A stretch of 23,148 bases of DNA from a virus. Within the stretch, counting starts at the first letter, position 1, and each line of letters starts with the position of its first letter. A model generated the notes under the pieces. It saw nothing but the letters and a program-made list of their open reading frames with translations, did not search any database and was not told the origin of the DNA. Shown here in pieces: positions 2,842 through 16,500 of this stretch. A program made the position numbers and the translations under genes. The stretch is taken from positions 1 to 23,148 of IMG/VR virus record IMGVR_UViG_3300046007_004185. One strand, 5' to 3'.

Positions 2842-3054
2842 TCACTGTGCGGGCTCTTCCTTGACCCAGACACGCATTAACCTTTTGAAGATTGTTGAAC
2901 TCTTCGCGTCGTGGTATTCGACTAACTTGCGCCAATAGTCCACTTGCGCAGAGTCAGTGGATCGCATCATGCTTGCCACGGCGGATTCAAGATCCCTGTG
3001 GGCGTTGACTAGATCGGTCAGTAGATGGTCAAGTAGCTCTTGATGGGTGCTCAC
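2842..3054 (-). CDS. Hypothetical helical small protein
   Basis: 70 aa. The start is GTG at 3054, preceded by TGAGGACCT, a good ribosome-binding site. The sequence is amphipathic and helical throughout (Q-E-L-L-D-H-L-L-T-D-L near the start, Y-W-R-K-L-V-E-Y-H-D in the middle) and ends with acidic residues. No cysteines, signal peptide or membrane segment. It lies between the duplicated tail of the Gp88 gene and the Cys/His protein. No family recognised. Confidence 0.6.
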   Translation of the reverse strand: MSTHQELLDHLLTDLVNAHRDLESAVASMMRSTDSAQVDYWRKLVEYHDAKSSTIFKRLMRVWVKEEPAQ

Positions 3055-3059
3055 AGGTC

Positions 3060-3135
3060 CTCACTTTTCAGGGGTCTACGTTGATCGTTGGTGCAGAGAA
3101 CTCGGCACCACGGACGAATCCACGATGCTGGGCGG
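3060..3135 (-). pseudogene. Diverged duplicate of the Gp88 gene's 3' end
   Basis: This 76-bp stretch aligns without gaps to 3148-3223, the end of the Gp88-family gene plus its downstream bases, with about 59 of 76 positions identical by my count. The reading frame is kept: the copy would encode Q-H-R-G-F-V-R-G-A-E-F-S-A ending N-V-D-P-stop, against Q-H-R-G-F-V-R-E-A-E-F-T-A ending N-V-V-P-stop in the gene. It has no start codon of its own. Confidence 0.75.
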
Positions 3136-3155
3136 GTCTGGAACTCACTCACTTT

Positions 3156-3920
3156 TCAGGGGACCACGTTGCCCGCGGCCGCCGTGAATTCGGCCTCGCG
3201 GACAAACCCACGATGCTGAGCGGACTTGGCAATGCCCTTTTGGCGAAGCGCCACAACTACGCCCTTAGGCTGCACGAAAGTAGCGTCATGCTGGTCGCCG
3301 TCGACGATGTACACGCCGTTCCAAGTGAGTCCGCCGATGTCGGCATTTCGAGGGAGGTTGAAGGGTACTGCGACCCGGATGCCCTTGCCGACAAGCTCTT
3401 GAATTCGCTCGATTGAATCACGTTCGGACGCACTATATGTCCGGTCGACGCCGTCATCCGGCCATTGTTCCGGGGGCTTCTTCGAGTATTCGTACTGGAT
3501 TAGACGGACCCCCGAAGAGCGGGCCAGACCGTCGATCCATTGCCGCAATTCGATCGGCCATTCGATGTCGCTGGTGCCGTTCAGACGCAGGCTAACCGTG
3601 GGCGGGTTGGCCGGATCGCGACCCTTGCGCAACTTGCGGAAAGTTGCGACAAGCTCTTGCCCGAGCTGTTCGCGGAAGCGCACAGGATCGGTTTGCCAGA
3701 GGTCGAGCCTACGCTTCTGCGCTTGGCTAACGCTATCCATGCGGAAGCGGAAGCTCCCGAGAGCCTTGCTCCCGAAACATGCCGCCTTGCAACCCGGGGT
3801 TGCGTTTGGGCAGACATTCTTGCTGCCGGGCGGCAGGTAGAGGATAAGGGCGGCATCGACGATGCCAGCGGCGACAGTCTTGGCCGTCTTGCCAGACACG
3901 GTGAGGAGCTTAGTTGCCAC
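3156..3920 (-). CDS. Gp88-family protein
   Basis: 254 aa. The start is GTG at 3920, preceded by CAGGAG at good spacing and overlapping the end of the upstream gene by 11 nt; the frame stays open to 4127, but that extension is antisense-like and would overlap the upstream gene entirely. The N-terminal half has the cysteine pattern C37-x6-C44-x3-C48 in an N-V-C-P-N-A-T-P-G-C-K-A-A-C-F-G context, then R-L-N-G-T-S-D-I-E-W, as in the 'Gene product 88' family of actinobacteriophage and other phage proteins. Its molecular role is not known; the cysteines suggest metal binding. Part of its 3' end is duplicated downstream. Confidence 0.8.
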   Translation of the reverse strand: MATKLLTVSGKTAKTVAAGIVDAALILYLPPGSKNVCPNATPGCKAACFGSKALGSFRFRMDSVSQAQKRRLDLWQTDPVRFREQLGQELVATFRKLRKGRDPANPPTVSLRLNGTSDIEWPIELRQWIDGLARSSGVRLIQYEYSKKPPEQWPDDGVDRTYSASERDSIERIQELVGKGIRVAVPFNLPRNADIGGLTWNGVYIVDGDQHDATFVQPKGVVVALRQKGIAKSAQHRGFVREAEFTAAAGNVVP

Positions 3921-4134
3921 TGCTCTGCTCCTGCCGCAGGTAGGCTTCATAATCGAGACGCGTCCATCGATTGATGTCGTCAATCCATGCCAAAGCGCGA
4001 TTAGTTGCGTGCACCTCCGTCTCGCCGTGGAACATGACCTGCTCCCATCGGTTCGCGAGCTGCACGCCCCCATCGGGTGTGATGACGATGCAGACCCTGC
4101 GCACGGCGACAAGCCACATTCGCTCATTCATCAT
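3910..4134 (-). CDS. Hypothetical protein
   Basis: 74 aa from ATG at 4134, which has CGGAG nine bases upstream. The frame is open to a GTG at 4200, but that would overlap the small ORF at 4124-4225 almost fully. It has a hydrophobic strand (W-L-V-A-V-R-R-V-C-I-V-I-T) and a helical C-terminus. It overlaps the Gp88 gene downstream and the 33-codon ORF upstream, so the three are probably cotranslated. No family recognised. Confidence 0.6.
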   Translation of the reverse strand: MMNERMWLVAVRRVCIVITPDGGVQLANRWEQVMFHGETEVHATNRALAWIDDINRWTRLDYEAYLRQEQSSGN

Positions 4135-4225
4135 TGAAGCACACTCCGTGGCGATCGAGATAATCTTGAACGATCGCGGCATCATTTTGATCATCGTCAC
4201 CGATGATCAGGTCAGTAGGATTCAT
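4124..4225 (-). CDS. Very short ORF directly behind the hammerhead ribozyme
   Basis: 33 aa, very acidic (M-N-P-T-D-L-I-I-G-D-D-D-Q-N-D early, ending C-F-N-D-E). ATG at 4225. The ribosome-binding site is weak (GAGAG about 9 nt upstream) and overlaps the closing stem of the ribozyme fold. It overlaps the next gene by 11 nt. It may be a real leader peptide or small protein coupled to the downstream genes, or just a chance frame in a structured leader. Confidence 0.45.
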   Translation of the reverse strand: MNPTDLIIGDDDQNDAAIVQDYLDRHGVCFNDE

Positions 4226-4226
4226 G

Positions 4227-4341
4227 GTCTAAGCTCTCGTTTGATTGTGAGAAGTTTCGCCCATACCGTGGGCTCATCAGACCGGACAGTATCCGGTGAC
4301 CTAGGCCACGTGTACTAACCTACACGTAACCTAGCTTAGAC
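4227..4341 (-). promoter_or_regulatory. Larger RNA fold enclosing the hammerhead and the start region
   Basis: The minus strand has GUCUAAGCU (4341-4333) and AGCUUAGAC (4235-4227), perfectly complementary over 9 bp, flanking the hammerhead and ending one base before the ATG at 4225. Between the first arm and the cleavage site lies a second hairpin: CTAGG-cc-ACGTGTA / TACACGT-aa-CCTAG (plus strand 4301-4334), with loop CTAACC. The two stems share two bases, so they compete slightly. Together they could extend the short stem III or hide the translation start. Confidence 0.5.
4251..4303 (-). ncRNA. Hammerhead self-cleaving ribozyme (type III topology)
   Basis: Read 5' to 3' on the minus strand: GUC (4300-4298); stem I ACCGGA / UCCGGU (4297-4292, 4286-4281) with loop UACUG; CUGAUGA (4280-4274); stem II GCCCA / UGGGC (4273-4269, 4263-4259) with loop CGGUA; GAAA (4258-4255). 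All invariant core positions are present, including G10.1-C11.1, A15.1-U16.1 and C17. Expected cleavage is between 4298 and 4297. Stem III is short: A-U, C-G, a G.U wobble and U-A. Stem III is the open end, hence type III. Hammerheads are known from phage genomes, but activity here is inferred. Cleavage would leave the downstream mRNA starting with the stem I hairpin, about 70 nt before the ATG at 4225. Confidence 0.85.
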
Positions 4342-4606
4342 GTCGATTCTCGCGCGGGTTGGCTTGTTGCCTCTCGCCTTTTCCGCGCGTGCCCGCCTTG
4401 CTGCATCCTATTGCCCAGCGGGTTTTGAATTGGAAGACTCGATTCATCGGCAAAAACGCTGGCCCCAAGTGAAATTACTCAGAACTGCATTCTTGGCAGG
4501 CTCGATGCGGGTGGCGCCACCATGCGTCACCTATGATCCTGCGGGGTTGAAGAGCCGTCGATTAGGTCCCCCTGTCACAGGGACCCCACCGACACTATGC
4601 AACCGA

Positions 4607-4618
4607 TGTGAGTGTACC
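4607..4618 (-). promoter_or_regulatory. GTACACTCRCA motif upstream of the ribozyme
   Basis: The minus strand reads GGTACACTCACA. It faces toward the hammerhead and the small genes beyond it, 266 nt before the GTCTAAGCT arm. If the motif is a promoter, the ribozyme lies in the 5' untranslated region of its transcript. Confidence 0.4.
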
Positions 4619-4746
4619 GGATGGAGCCGGATTCGGGATCCGATCAGGGAGGATCGCGCGCGCGCGTGCGTCTATATATGTGCCGAACGTGTGCCCATGG
4701 GGGGGCCGCCATGCTCGTTCGTTCTATTAACCACTTCGGAATTTTG

Positions 4747-4785
4747 CTCCAAAAACCTTTGGAGACGAGGCCACGGTTAAGTGGC
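4747..4785 (-). terminator. Two hairpins after the tail fibre gene
   Basis: On the minus strand, GCCAC-TTAACC-GTGGC (4785-4770) is followed by CTCCAAA-GGTT-TTTGGAG (4764-4747) and then CAAAATTCC. They begin 46 nt after the tail fibre stop. The second has a 7-bp perfect stem but only a poor T-run after it, so termination is plausible rather than clear. Confidence 0.35.
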
Positions 4786-4830
4786 AAGGACGGTCACCGA
4801 TGAAACCGACCAGTAAACGCTGTAGACCAA

Positions 4831-5949
4831 CTACGGACCGAAGTCCATGAAGCACGCTGTGATGCTTCCCGTCGACCGGGACCAGGCTTCCGTGCCGTCG
4901 TAGGACGTCGGCGCTGCACTTTCGTACAACGCGACCGTAGCCCGCGGCAGGGTGGTCCCCGTGGGCACAGGAAAGCCCAGCCAGGACTGAGCACCGCCTA
5001 CAGGAAGTTGCCTGATCGTCACGGAGTTCTCCGTGTAGCAGGCGAGCCAGTAGACCCTGCAGGGCTCCAGGTCAGCGTTCAGGGTGAACGTGTAAACGCC
5101 CGGCGCGCTCAGGGGAAGCGTCTCACTGCCCAGGGCAGCCCCGTCGGGACGGAGGTCGTCCTGTACGAGCACGCCGTCCCCGTCGCTCTTGGAGTCGTAC
5201 ACGGCGATGGTCATGTCCCCGGTGGGCGAGCCCCCAGTGATCTGGATGTAGACGCGGACGAGGGTCCCACCACGACGAGGGCTGATGAACGGGATGAACT
5301 CAGTCCTGCCCGCCGTGCTCGAAGCGGCCGTCAGGGCGACACCGTTGATGCAGCCAGCGACGTAGGTTGCTTCGTACCCATTGCCAGTGGAGTCCTGGTA
5401 CAGGTCGGTCGCCGTAAAGTCTTTGCCGTAGCCAGGTTGCGTCCGAGCATCTGCTCCACTGAGCACAATGCTGTCCGCGGTAGGAGTCTCAGCGGGCAGG
5501 GGCCATCCAGTCCGAGTACCGTCAGCGAGGACGTACTGGGTGTGGTCGTCGTCCCCAAGGCCAGTCAGAGCACCGTGATCGGTGACACCACCGCTGACCG
5601 TACCCCAGGTTCCATTGCCCTTGAGCACGTCTGTGGCATTGCCAGACAGGGCAGGGAGCAGCCCTGAGGAGGTCGTGGTGGCATCGGGAATGACGTCCGC
5701 ACCACCAGTGATGTGCCTGTCGGAATGGTCATTGAACTCGACAGCGAGGGCGTCCACGTCATTCGTCAATGACAGGAGGGACCCATCCAGAGCAGTGAGT
5801 GCCTGGAGGGTTCCCTCAATTACTGACTGCTGACTAGCGTCGATAACGTCATTTGAATCAGCCCGAGCAATCAGTTGTTCGATCAGTCCGAGCAGGCGGG
5901 TCTCTACCTGTCGGACTTCATTCTTGTCTGCGGGTCGGGGGAGTCCCAT
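4831..5949 (-). CDS. Tail fibre / receptor-binding protein
   Basis: 372 aa from ATG at 5949, two bases after the stop of the preceding gene; the longer frame to 6162 would overlap that gene. Residues about 10-75 are helical and likely form a coiled coil. Then comes H-S-D-R-H-I-T-G-G-A-D-V-I-P (75-88), a G-N-G-T-W segment (111-115) and T-D-H-G-A-L-T-G-L-G-D-D-D-H-T-Q-Y (123-139), a motif common in phage fibre and collar proteins. The rest is beta-rich, Gly/Thr/Ser-rich and likely the receptor-facing domain. It lacks the T7 gp17 N-terminal anchor, so how it attaches is unclear. It is separated from the other virion genes by the terminase and repeat regions. No clear ribosome-binding site; it is probably coupled to the upstream gene. 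Confidence 0.8.
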   Translation of the reverse strand: MGLPRPADKNEVRQVETRLLGLIEQLIARADSNDVIDASQQSVIEGTLQALTALDGSLLSLTNDVDALAVEFNDHSDRHITGGADVIPDATTTSSGLLPALSGNATDVLKGNGTWGTVSGGVTDHGALTGLGDDDHTQYVLADGTRTGWPLPAETPTADSIVLSGADARTQPGYGKDFTATDLYQDSTGNGYEATYVAGCINGVALTAASSTAGRTEFIPFISPRRGGTLVRVYIQITGGSPTGDMTIAVYDSKSDGDGVLVQDDLRPDGAALGSETLPLSAPGVYTFTLNADLEPCRVYWLACYTENSVTIRQLPVGGAQSWLGFPVPTGTTLPRATVALYESAAPTSYDGTEAWSRSTGSITACFMDFGP

Positions 5950-6309: not shown

Positions 6310-6600
6310 AAAACGGATTGACCTAAGTAAGTATATATGTATGATATATACTCCATGGTAGTCATTTTATAGAAGAGATTGTAATTGTTTATAGCTTGCT
6401 GAACAGTTCACAATAGTTAACTATAACTAACGTTAACTGGTCTTTCTTCTCTTCTTCTTCTGTCTTTCTGTCTTTCTTCCTTCTTTGTAGTAGTTCACCT
6501 TAACTCACTTTAGTTTAAGTATGGTTTAGTTAACTCAACTTAGGTAAGTTTAACTCAACTAAGGTTAGTTAGGGTGAGTTAAGTATATGTTTGCCCTGCC
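6310..6600. other. AT-rich intergenic region, candidate replication origin or control region
   Basis: This is the only clearly AT-rich stretch in a GC-rich window. It contains a perfect dyad GTATATAT / ATATATAC (6331-6351), palindromes GTTAAC, a pyrimidine tract made of TCTTTC/TTCTTC units (about 6441-6487), and repeated TTAACTCA-type elements, some inverted (CTTAACTCAC at 6499-6508 against GTGAGTTAAG at 6574-6583). No gene fits. Such composition is typical of origins or promoter clusters in podoviruses, which is inference here. Confidence 0.5.
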
Positions 6601-6659
6601 CGAAACCGTATCCCCTCCGTAAGTCCTTGTTTTGCAAGGGGTTAGGACTGAAGTGAACT

Positions 6660-7215
6660 GGCTTCGAGCAGGAGTCAGGACTGGTCTTCCTGATTGAGCT
6701 TGGGGTCAAGCTGGCTCTGAGGTCCTGATTAGACCTGGATTCAAGCTGGCTCTGAGGTCCAGACCGACCCCCTCGCTTCGCTCGGGATCGGTCTCCTTGC
6801 CGAGCAAGACTGGTCTTCCTGATTGAACCTGGGTTCAGAACCGGTCTCCTGATTGAACCTGGGTTCAGAACCGGTCTCCTGATTGAACCTGGGTTCAGAA
6901 CCGGTCTCCTGATTGAACCTGGGTTCAAGCTGGCTCTGAGGCCCAGACCGACCCCCTCGCTTCGCTCGGGATCGGTCTCCTTGCCGAGCAAGACTGGTCT
7001 TCCTGATTGAGCTTGGGCTCAGGACCGGTCTTCGAGATCGGTCTCCTTGCCGAGCAAGACTGGTCTTCCTGATTGAACCTGGGTTCAGAACCGGTCTCCT
7101 GATTGAACCTGGGTTCAAGCTGGCTCTGAGGCCCAGACCGACCCCCTCGCTCCGCTCGGGATCGGTCTCTTGCCAAGCAAGGCTGGTCTCCTGGTTGAAC
7201 CTTCAACCAACCTAC
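6660..7215. repeat. Mosaic tandem-repeat array
   Basis: The array is built from a few modules reused in varying order. One is a 30-bp unit beginning GATTGAACCTGGGTTCAGAA at 6821, 6851 and 6881, with a truncated copy at 6911 and others near 7071 and 7101. A second carries AGACCGA / TCGGTCT arms around CCCTCGCTTCGCTCGGG (6761-6794, 6945-6978, 7135-7168). Between them are GCAAGACTGGTCTTCCT and CAAGCTGGCTCTGAGG modules. The 30-bp unit has the near-palindrome TGAACC-TG-GGTTCA. The units are contiguous with no unique spacers. Frames crossing the array encode only low-complexity repeats. Confidence 0.9.
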
Positions 7216-7236
7216 CCTCACTGGGGGCTTTGGACT

Positions 7237-7363
7237 GTCGACTCCGTCTCCGGGTTTCGGACCTGTCTGTCCGTTGTCCGCTGTCCACCCCGAGCACGCG
7301 GTCGACTCTGTCTCCGGGTTTCGGACCTGTCTGTCCGTTGTCCACTCCGAGCACGCGGTCGAC
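7237..7363. repeat. 64/57-bp tandem duplication
   Basis: The two copies each begin GTCGACTC, at 7237 and 7301, and a third GTCGAC follows at 7358. Both read through TCTCCGGGTTTCGGACCTG and end CGAGCACGCG. The second lacks 7 bases of an internal GTCC repeat. It lies between the mosaic array and the zinc-ribbon genes and has no convincing gene. Confidence 0.85.
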
Positions 7364-7573
7364 TGGTTGGGCCCACTGGCTGGGTGCGGACCCCACCACT
7401 TCCGCAACTGCAGGGGGCGGTACCGGGCCAGCGTCCTCTGTGGCTGCGTGGGCTTGCGCAGGCTGCACTTTGAGGGGTGGGTGGCTACCCTAGGACCTTT
7501 TCCGCCCGAAATCGTTTATACGCGATCCTGGAGCGTTACAGAGGGTGCCCCTGTTTGGGCCCATTCTAGGGCG

Positions 7574-7585
7574 GGTACACTCGCA
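7574..7585 (+). promoter_or_regulatory. GTACACTCRCA motif before the first zinc-ribbon gene
   Basis: GGTACACTCGCA ends 13 nt before the ATG at 7599. The same motif ends 13 nt before the ATG of the paralogue at 7886. Here it is on the plus strand, matching the direction of the gene. Close to the start codon it may be either a promoter giving a very short leader or a translation signal. Confidence 0.45.
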
Positions 7586-13500: not shown

Positions 13501-16500
13501 TCAAGCAGGTCCTCGCTAGTGAGTGTACCTTTCTCAGAGCCCAGTTCGACCAGGCGCTTGGGCTTCCGAGGTTCACTCGGAGCTTCGGGTGCCTCCACCT
13601 TGGGCGGTTCGGGCGGCAGGAAGTCCTCAACCTTGTCTTCCATGGGAGGAAGTTCAGGCTCAGGCTCTTTCACAGGAGCGGGCTCCTCAACCGCTGCGGC
13701 CGCAGGAGGCGTGCTCGGGGGCCCATCGGGACCCTTAGTTTCGCTGTTCCCCCCGGCCTCCTGAGTAGAAACAGGGGCTTCCGTGGCCTCAGGAGGCGTG
13801 CTCGGGGGCTCATCGGGACCCTTAGTTTCGCTGTTCCCCCCGGCCTCCTGAGTAGAAACAGGGGCTTCCGTGGCCTCAGCCTTCGGGGTCTTAGCCTTCG
13901 CAGAGACCTCAGCACCCTCCTCAGCCTGGGCAGCGAGCAGGCGCTCTTCCGCCCGCTGGAGTTCGTCAAACTGACGACGAGCACGCCCGGCGAACGCATC
14001 CATGTCGGTATCGTTCAACTCACCCGCTTCGACCTTGGCCTGGATCTCCATGCCCTCTTCCATCAGGGCCTTCCGACGCTCAGCGATCGACTCAAGGGTG
14101 ACCTTGGCCGAAGCCTCACGGCTCCGCTTGACCTGCAGGACAAGCTCAGGCTTGCTGTACTCCAGCTTGGCGAGCACGGCCTTCACGTCCTGCTCAGTGA
14201 GCTGGATGTCCGCGCCTGCCAGGGAGGACCCGCGGCCGCCCTTCGACATGCCCGCTCCAGCTTCCGTACGCTTAGCCTTGGCGACAACCTCACCGGGGCG
14301 GGGCTTCCGAGTAGGGAAATCACCAGCCTCACCAGCCTCAGCGACCAGCGCATCCAGGTAGGCGTAGACCTTGTCCTGGACTTCGCGGGGTTCGTTCTCG
14401 AGGAAGTCCTCCACGAACGACCAGCCAGAGGTCTCACCAAGCTGGAGGCGTGACAGGGCACGCTGGTTCATCTCTTCCTGCTTGTCCAGGCCAAGCCCAA
14501 CAATGCTCTTGTCGGCCTCCGCCATATCGCTGAGCATCTCCTTGCGCCGCCTGGAAGACAGAGTAGCAGAGCCGCCACCATCGTCCTCACTGGCGTTGCG
14601 GATGAACGTCCTGCTACCGTCCTCGTCGACGATCACTTCACCGAGGGACAGCGATTCCCTGGACGGCTGAGAGGGGCCCTTGGCCTCACCAACCAGGAGT
14701 TCTTTAACAGCCTTCCGTTCAGCATCCAGGCGCGCCGTGAGCAGCTTCTCGGCGTCTTCCGTGACAGTCACACCCAGACGGCGGAGGTAATTCTCAACGG
14801 CCTCAGCCTTGGCACCGCGGTTGTTTATGGCGACAACCATGGCGTAGATCACGTTGGCACCAGGCGGGTCGTTGGGCACCTTCACGTCGACGGCGTTGTC
14901 GCCGCTGCCGTACTTGGGGTACTCCAGCGGAAAACCCGTAACGCGCTGCTGCCCATTGAGGGTGCGGGGGTAGGGGATGCTCGCAGCGAAGTCAGCACCG
15001 CGGAGACCCTGGCCATTGGCTTGCTCAGCGGCCTGGGAGATCGCGTCGAACTCTTCTTGGGTGACCTTGAAGGAGCGGGCGTAAGCCAGGTCCCCACGGC
15101 CCTTGAGGCGGGAGATCGAGGAGGCAGCTTGGCTCTTCCGACCGCCGAGGAAGTCCCCAACAATCGTGTCCAGATTCTTGCCGCCAAAGCGGGACCGCAT
15201 CATGGACACGAAGTCCGAGAAGACCTCACGGATGCGGAGTAGGGTGTTCTTGATGCCGCCCCCCTGCATCGCCTTGAGCTTGGCCAGGCGGGACTCGGTC
15301 AGGTCAGTGGCGTTGGTGGCGAACCACTCGGCCGGGGAGATGAACTCATACTCGCCAGCTTCGACGATCTCGTCAATCGCGTCCTCGGTCTGAGCAGGGG
15401 TCATTGCCGCCTTCAATTGCTCGAAGCGACGAACCGCCCCAGGAGAGTTCTCAAAGTGAGCCTTCCTGGCTTCGACGAACTGGGTCGTGATCTTCTTGGA
15501 CTCAGCCGGGGTGAGGCGTCCTTCCAAGCTGTGCCAGACTTCGTGCATCAGGTCCTTGCGGATCCTCCCGAGCTGGAAGCTCTCGCTGAGCAGGCTGATG
15601 GTCTTGTAGCGGTAGTCGAAGTTGGAGGCACCAGGAGTGGTGGGCTCGAAGCGAACAGAGATGTCGTCAAACAGCTTCGGTCCGACTTTCGTGATGAAGG
15701 TCTCGAACATCTCGCGGTCGGCTCCCTCGAGCTGGGTCAGGGCACCCGTCTTGGAGACAATGTCCGACAGCTTGGTGTTGCCGTACACCTGCTCGAAGCG
15801 CGGAGCACGGCCCTCAGCGACGCGCAGGTCGTGAGCCTTACGGTGCATCTGCTTCGTGAGCAGGCCGTCAATGGCCTCCTCGTAGTAGGTCGTGGCGGCC
15901 TTGGCAGCCTCAGCCTGAGTGACGCCGCTGCGACGGAGCTTGTTGTACGTCTTGGTGACCTTGCTCGCATGGAACAGGAGGTCCAGAGGGACACCGATGA
16001 TACCACCCTCAGCCAGGTTCTTGAGGCGGCCCTCGAACTCGCTGTCGTCCTCGTCGGTCTCGAGGTAGCGGCTGACGTCGTTCTCAAAGGCAGTGCCCTT
16101 GACCAGGTCGCTCAGGCGGCCGCTCGATCCCTCGAACACGGTGAAGTCGACAAGTGCTCCCGCGGCCACGTCTCCAGCGATGGAACCGCTGCCAAGGAAG
16201 CGGCCAACCTTGCCGAGCTGACCGATCTTTCCAAGGCGAGTCAGGCCAACGTACGGTACGACGAACTGGGTCAGGCCCTCGATCAGGCCGCCACTGATCG
16301 TGGAGCTTTCCCCGAGCAGGCGCTTGTCGTAGTTGGGCAGAGCATCGCCAACGACAGTGTCAGCCAGACCGTAGACAGACTTGATCGCCCCCTCGAGGCC
16401 CCGAACAGGAGCAAAGAGGTTGTCTAGAGTCAGGTCGGTGTAGTCTTTGGTGCTGAAGCCTCCACCCGTCTCGGGGGCACTCGGAGCCTCTTGGTAAGGA

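Follow-up and report, generated by a model that had tools for sequence, protein, structure and literature searches.

The question raised by this locus is what a self-cleaving RNA would do at the start of a small-gene operon in a T7-like phage. The stretch analysed (the window) comprises 23,148 nucleotides (nt) of viral DNA, positions 1 to 23,148 of IMG/VR record IMGVR_UViG_3300046007_004185. The element under study is a predicted type III hammerhead ribozyme on the minus strand, matched by covariance models at 4249-4305, upstream of genes for a 33-amino acid (aa) protein, a 73-aa protein and a GP88-family protein. We propose, with a probability of about 0.68 on sequence grounds, that this element serves as a constitutive RNA processing site (mRNA punctuation) in a polycistronic T7-like phage transcript. 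This proposal is supported by the intact core and stems, the match to a model built from other phage hammerheads (R2), the complementarity of the two loops, the placement of the element, the structure upstream of it, the hammerheads of the T7-like relatives L006 and L008, and published precedent. The predicted trimming of the leader of the 33-aa/73-aa/GP88 transcript is consistent with the position of the element and with its relatives.

Core, stems and model scores of the predicted hammerhead

The hammerhead motif consists of the core C3U4G5A6N7G8A9 and G12A13A14, the pair A15.1-U16.1 and cleavage at NUH; the window has GUC, CUGAUGA and GAAA, all within 4300-4255. Read on the minus strand, GGUC, the stem I hairpin, CUGAUGA, the stem II hairpin and GAAA follow one another unbroken from 4301 to 4255 in the type III order, and the core with stems I (6 base pairs, bp), II (5 bp) and III (4 bp) is completely present between 4302 and 4249. 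GGUC occupies 4301-4298. The predicted cleavage site lies between C4298, the end of GUC, and A4297, judging from where GUC stands with respect to stem I and the core, and from hammerhead chemistry. The stem I hairpin (ACCGGA/UCCGGU, loop UACUG) spans 4281-4297, the core CUGAUGA 4274-4280 and the stem II hairpin (GCCCA/UGGGC, loop CGGUA) 4259-4273. GAAA (4258-4255) runs into the 3' strand of stem III as GAAACUU (4252-4258), and the 5' strand, AGGU (4299-4302), pairs with ACUU and leaves the adjacent C4298 unpaired. Stem III, in which one of the four pairs is G-U, is open, and stems I and II are closed by loops, as in the type III form. Loops I and II are complementary over five bases, including one G-U, and might thereby form a kissing contact. 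The contiguous series from GUC to GAAA had been described in the original prediction and is confirmed here; stem III, the loop complementarity and three flanking structures (P1, Pa and Pb, see below) are additions to it.

A strict descriptor (GUC, stem I of at least 6 bp, CUGAUGA, stem II of at least 5 bp, GAAA, short loops) had no match on either strand in 2000 shuffled windows (first-order Markov), and a much laxer descriptor gave 17 matches across 400 shuffled windows. The Rfam model RF00008 (Hammerhead_3) matched 4249-4305 with 32.4 bits and an E of 2.3e-5 in a 301-base search against all families, and with an E of 4.3e-7 in a one-family search of the window record; the one-family search of control genomes returned matches at E up to 1 in 3/14, none above the cut-off. 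We also used a covariance model, R2, whose training set of 41 further phage type III hammerheads left out the window and its near-identical relatives (L195 included). R2 matched the window with 45.1 bits (E 3e-10), its only match at E up to 10. The type III assignment of the original prediction is thus supported by R2 and by a sub-threshold RF00008 match, and the element is a predicted self-cleaving hammerhead of this type. A chance resemblance in a region that is only a structured leader or terminator would fit the hairpin directly upstream of the ribozyme, which might also be read as part of a transcription-stop or attenuator leader. The 0/2000 shuffles and the E of 3e-10 with a model from other phages make this very improbable.

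Phage type III elements and hammerheads in T7-like relatives

A scan of viral contigs by pattern yielded 111 stretches, and 89 loci were examined, in which 91 sites were checked and 42 distinct elements retained, L195 among them. Retention required a stem I of at least 5 bp and a stem II of at least 4 bp; stem III beyond two pairs, the loops, upstream structure and ORF (open reading frame) distance were not selected for. The pairing of stems I and II in the covariation analysis is partly built in because the filter required both stems, and counts of pairs and of pair types were nearer to shuffles (63/500 and 13/500 as high). Stem III was mostly 3-6 bp long, and its pairs not fixed by the search pattern were formed in 41/41, 31/41 and 24/41 of the other elements. 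The complementarity of loops I and II across the 42 elements was reached by 0/1000 permutations with Watson-Crick pairs and by 1/1000 with G-U allowed.

An ATG-started ORF of at least 40 codons was present within 70 nt after GAAA in 39/42 elements (median 23 nt), compared with 571/1613 random same-strand positions, 245/840 positions on the other strand and 590/1555 positions (38%) right after a stop codon in the same loci. The ORF counted for L195 is not the 33-aa ORF, which is below the 40-codon limit. The position just before a start codon, which the original prediction had called unusual, is therefore ordinary for the class, and a halovirus hammerhead described below is placed in the same way. 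Upstream stop codons lay at a median of 37 nt where found (39/42), a figure that has no control set. The 39 nt up to GGUC were also more strongly folded in the 42 elements than in 1592 post-stop controls from their own contigs (mean -12.2 vs. -8.2 kcal/mol, p 5e-7), and folds at -12 kcal/mol or below were found in 23/42 elements vs. 316/1592 controls; such structure before the cut may have other reasons, for example terminators. Taken as a class, these widespread phage hammerheads probably trim long phage transcripts to yield separate messages. The contigs L204, L237, L233, L229 and L282 each gave several type III hammerhead matches, some of them weak.

Hammerheads were also present in T7-like relatives of the window phage. 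Seven of the 25 terminase loci with at least 3 kilobases (kb) after the terminase (80 loci in all) hold one, which weakens the earlier view that a hammerhead is unusual in a T7-like phage; one of the seven is L009, a near-identical relative of the window. L006 and L008, whose terminases are 69% and GP88 proteins about 34% identical to those of the window, contain three and four type II hammerheads respectively. One of these opens the GP88 operon in each locus, and the others stand ahead of ORFs that include a DUF932 gene, at 25-46 nt from the start codons taken as true. These type II elements (set A3) were picked with a descriptor that specified stems I and III but not stem II. Stem II was nonetheless 92.9% paired, and the covariation score was 0.395 vs. 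0.174 in shuffles (0/500 as high); two of the five measures, counts of pairs and pair types, were not clearly above shuffles (77/500 and 127/500 as high). Rfam at a relaxed threshold reported no hammerhead in the leaders of L006 and L008, and RF02276 did not match their elements; the case for them consequently comes from the descriptor, the core and the covariation. Sub-threshold RF00008 matches overlapped two of them (E 0.05 and 0.85), and a named-phage search with one L008 element gave no match.

Further hammerheads were found in the T7-like loci L059, L077 and L081 (type II) and L054 (type III, 50.1 bits with R2). An Rfam gathering scan of ten loci reported only L077 and L142, as Hammerhead_II, and L059 went unreported there although it scored 39.2 bits, above the cut-off, in a one-family search. 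Default Rfam scans thus missed several elements of this kind in the loci examined. No hammerhead was found ahead of the GP88 gene of L052, a distant GP88 relative. Weak descriptor matches in L052, L057, L074, L139, L037 and L041 (one each in the last two), alternative folds in L090 and L100, and weak R2 matches in L098, L100, L008 and L005 were attributed to chance or to portions of other hammerheads. Model R1, built from the type II hammerheads of L006 and L008, matched the window at 4263-4336 (19.5 bits, E 5.8e-4), and a second R1 match at 1950-1996 (E 0.33) was taken as chance. A common origin of the window element and the L006/L008 elements was not supported, as flanks beyond the shared core aligned no better than shuffled ones (53/300 as good, best of six comparisons).

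Two further observations concern these relatives. The element GGACACTCTCCG is located inside stem III of 6/7 L006/L008 type II hammerheads and stands alone at L006 16700 and L008 10185; its sites are L006 16700, 17253, 18935 and 20031 and L008 9659, 10185, 10546 and 11641, and it may act as a promoter that forms part of the ribozyme. In other phages, type I hammerheads (L090 3103, L098 3493, L100 3582, L102 3055) lie in gaps between ORFs, some hundreds of bases downstream of GP88 relatives, with an ORF start 19-22 nt further in 4/4.

The surrounding fold and the predicted cleavage products

The ribozyme could be enclosed by further predicted pairing on the minus strand. The outer helix P1 is a perfect 9-bp duplex of GUCUAAGCU (4333-4341) and AGCUUAGAC (4227-4235), the latter one base ahead of the start codon of the 33-aa ORF. 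The 12-bp hairpin Pa (4303-4332) lies directly upstream of the ribozyme and would come to stand at the 3' terminus of the upstream RNA after the cut, and the 3-bp hairpin Pb (CUC/GAG, 4236-4251) contains part of the candidate Shine-Dalgarno sequence GAGAG. P1, Pa, stem III and Pb are each flush with the next, and the hammerhead would therefore hang from a four-way junction. The 136-nt region folds more stably than shuffles (z -4.75), and the Pa stretch (the 39 nt up to GGUC, taken from the near-identical L195) reaches -22.3 kcal/mol, rank 2 of the 42 elements.

According to the processing-site proposal, read-through late RNA would fold at 4341-4226 with loops I and II kissing, and cleavage would separate C4298 from A4297. 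Upstream, the mRNA would then end with Pa and a 2',3'-cyclic phosphate, while the downstream mRNA, encoding the 33-aa, 73-aa and GP88 proteins, would carry a 72-nt leader before the start codon, its 5'-OH end lying at the base of stem I. As hairpins would cap both new ends, decay should slow and the two messages should become uncoupled. We infer the cleavage, the end chemistry and the effects on stability and expression from the position of the element and from general hammerhead chemistry.

The closeness of P1 to the start codon fits another role, in which P1 and Pb would hide the Shine-Dalgarno sequence and spacer in the uncut RNA and cleavage would free the 5' strand and turn translation on, or a ligand or protein would set the rate of cutting. 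A P1 of 9 bp, one base short of AUG, is rare by chance (this length was attained in 9/5000 shuffles), and the Shine-Dalgarno sequence and spacer of the 33-aa ORF are almost fully paired in the predicted precursor RNA. This explanation is weakened, however, because the predicted 3' cleavage product still pairs most of the Shine-Dalgarno sequence and spacer; in addition, the two cleavage pieces remained joined on co-folding, and the architecture differs in L006 and L008. Helices similar to P1 reached a p of 0.05 or less in only 3/42 elements, near chance; a general outer P1 helix was rejected for the class, in which a 9-bp outer helix beside a start codon is uncommon. We consider ribozyme control of ribosome access unlikely here and prefer constitutive processing.

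Several results weigh against this preference. RF00008 was matched over the full model, but three model stem III positions are not standard pairs in the alignment and the 32.4 bits do not reach the gathering score of 48.5, which is why a gathering-threshold scan of the window reported nothing. The R2 score of the window is below that of every one of the 27 R2 training members searched (53.0-69.2 bits). The G-U pair of stem III is G-C in 41/41 other elements, and in nearest-neighbour folding stem III has a pair probability of about 0 and is absent from the minimum fold, the program favouring an extension of Pa instead. The full hammerhead fold has -45.8 vs. -51.2 kcal/mol for the minimum, under an energy model that ignores the core and loop-loop contacts, and, taken by itself, the 71-nt core region is no more stably folded than shuffles (z -0.81). 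Covariation support for the window copy is nil because its own relatives are near-identical. When GTG and TTG starts were allowed, ORF proximity was 39/42 elements vs. 1037/1621 random positions, with controls at 60-65%; only the ATG figure is telling, because the controls rise with these starts. Finally, 4/18 consensus hammerheads assayed in earlier work were inactive, against 14/18 active, according to PMC3088659.

The weak stem III with its alternative minimum fold, together with the score below the Rfam cut-off, could indicate a degenerate, inactive hammerhead, a functionless relic in which the core looks intact but Pa out-competes stem III. Against this, all core bases and both hairpins are intact, the loop complementarity is kept, the placement is typical of the class, and stems III of 3-6 bp are usual among phage elements; a relic therefore appears quite unlikely, and we retain the processing site as the preferred reading. 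A broader version, which is possible but doubtful, has phages in general punctuating their mRNA with a unit of hammerhead and upstream hairpin, in which one hairpin caps the 3' end, self-cleavage follows, and a second hairpin caps the 5' end ahead of the ribosome binding site. In some T7-like phages this unit would replace or join host RNase III, and in the window the outer helix would let cleavage also govern how accessible the beginning of the GP88 operon is.

Neighbouring genes and comparison with known systems

The 33-aa ORF (4124-4225, minus strand) is the first of the downstream operon and overlaps the start of the next ORF; it had no Pfam family above the cut-off (one weak match, E 0.038) and no PHROG match. 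The second ORF (3910-4131, minus strand) encodes 73 aa, not 74 as previously given, and had no family match in Pfam or PHROG. The GP88-family gene (3156-3920, minus strand) has a GTG start at 3920 and overlaps the end of the 73-aa ORF; the frame at 3156-4127 matched PF17338 (E 7e-23) and phrog_1617 (E 3e-37). The terminase of the window matches PF22530, of T7 type. The record from which L003 comes, whose terminase is 100% identical to that of the window, has a T7-type RNA polymerase frame of 824 aa, as does the source record of L083, which shares the element and a 100% identical GP88 protein; these findings bear out the earlier assignment to a T7-like phage. The polymerase had no match in the window record itself, which appears to lack the genome part carrying this gene. 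Region 3000-5000 showed no differences from L009 over 2 kb and one from L083, outside the element. A named-phage search gave no match for the window region, and the GP88 relatives from named-phage searches were all below 60% identity.

Other sequence features were observed in the window. The motif GTACACTC[AG]C is repeated at 4618, 2587, 1820 and 13528 (minus strand) and at 7575 and 7862 (plus strand). The copies at 2587, 1820 and 7862 lie at most 90 nt ahead of listed ORFs in the same direction, and the copy at 13528 is inside a long ORF; the motif is a candidate phage promoter. Three copies of CCCCTGAAAAGTGAG (3161, 3073 and 2822, minus strand) are located near gene ends or starts, and ACTTCTCACAAT is common to the 3' flank of the ribozyme (4255) and the leader of a DUF932 gene (1742), both on the minus strand. 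An 83-nt tandem duplication, 96% identical, spans 628-793. Region 6569-7407 (minus strand) is rich in repeats with overlapping repetitive ORFs (NPGSIRRPVL-like units) and aligns with near-identical relatives in several pieces at lower identity.

Because transcription in T7-like phages follows a simple plan, a ribozyme where an operon begins offers a direct test of why phages keep hammerheads. In T7, RNase III sites lie between the genes of polycistronic mRNA, and processing there leaves stable ends. The window element resembles them in being an intergenic processing site, but the agent is a host enzyme in T7 and, as predicted, a self-cleaving RNA here. The phage PaP3, to which the next comparison extends, is a podovirus.

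Perreault et al. 2011 (PMC3088659) describe bacterial hammerheads of types I, II and III, with prophage clusters flanking genes and transcript processing as a likely role; one prophage cluster cleaved in E. coli, and intergenic hammerheads are given for the phages PaP3 and Bcep176. Bacterial hammerheads are also enriched near Mu-like phage genes, according to PMC10085705. Hammerheads in T7-like phages and the upstream hairpin are named in no title or abstract opening among the papers listed in searches of open-licence literature, and our survey adds a pattern not met in the accessible text of PMC3088659 and PMC10085705, namely extra structure directly before the cleavage site in many phage type III hammerheads. 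The window element resembles the bacterial and prophage set of Perreault et al. 2011, for which processing of long phage transcripts is proposed; it differs from that set in that near-identical records of the window phage hold a T7-type RNA polymerase gene, Pa is flush with the ribozyme and the outer helix reaches the start codon (PMC3088659).

A further comparison from PMC3088659 is the HHphage hammerhead of the HF1/HF2 haloviruses, which precedes by 13 nt the start codon of the leading ORF in a polycistronic transcript and has a mapped 5' end at most 3 nt from its cleavage site. Like the window element, it belongs to a lytic virus and shortly precedes such a start codon. HHphage is, however, described there as a variant, in a virus with an archaeal host, whereas the core of the window element is fully consensus (PMC3088659).
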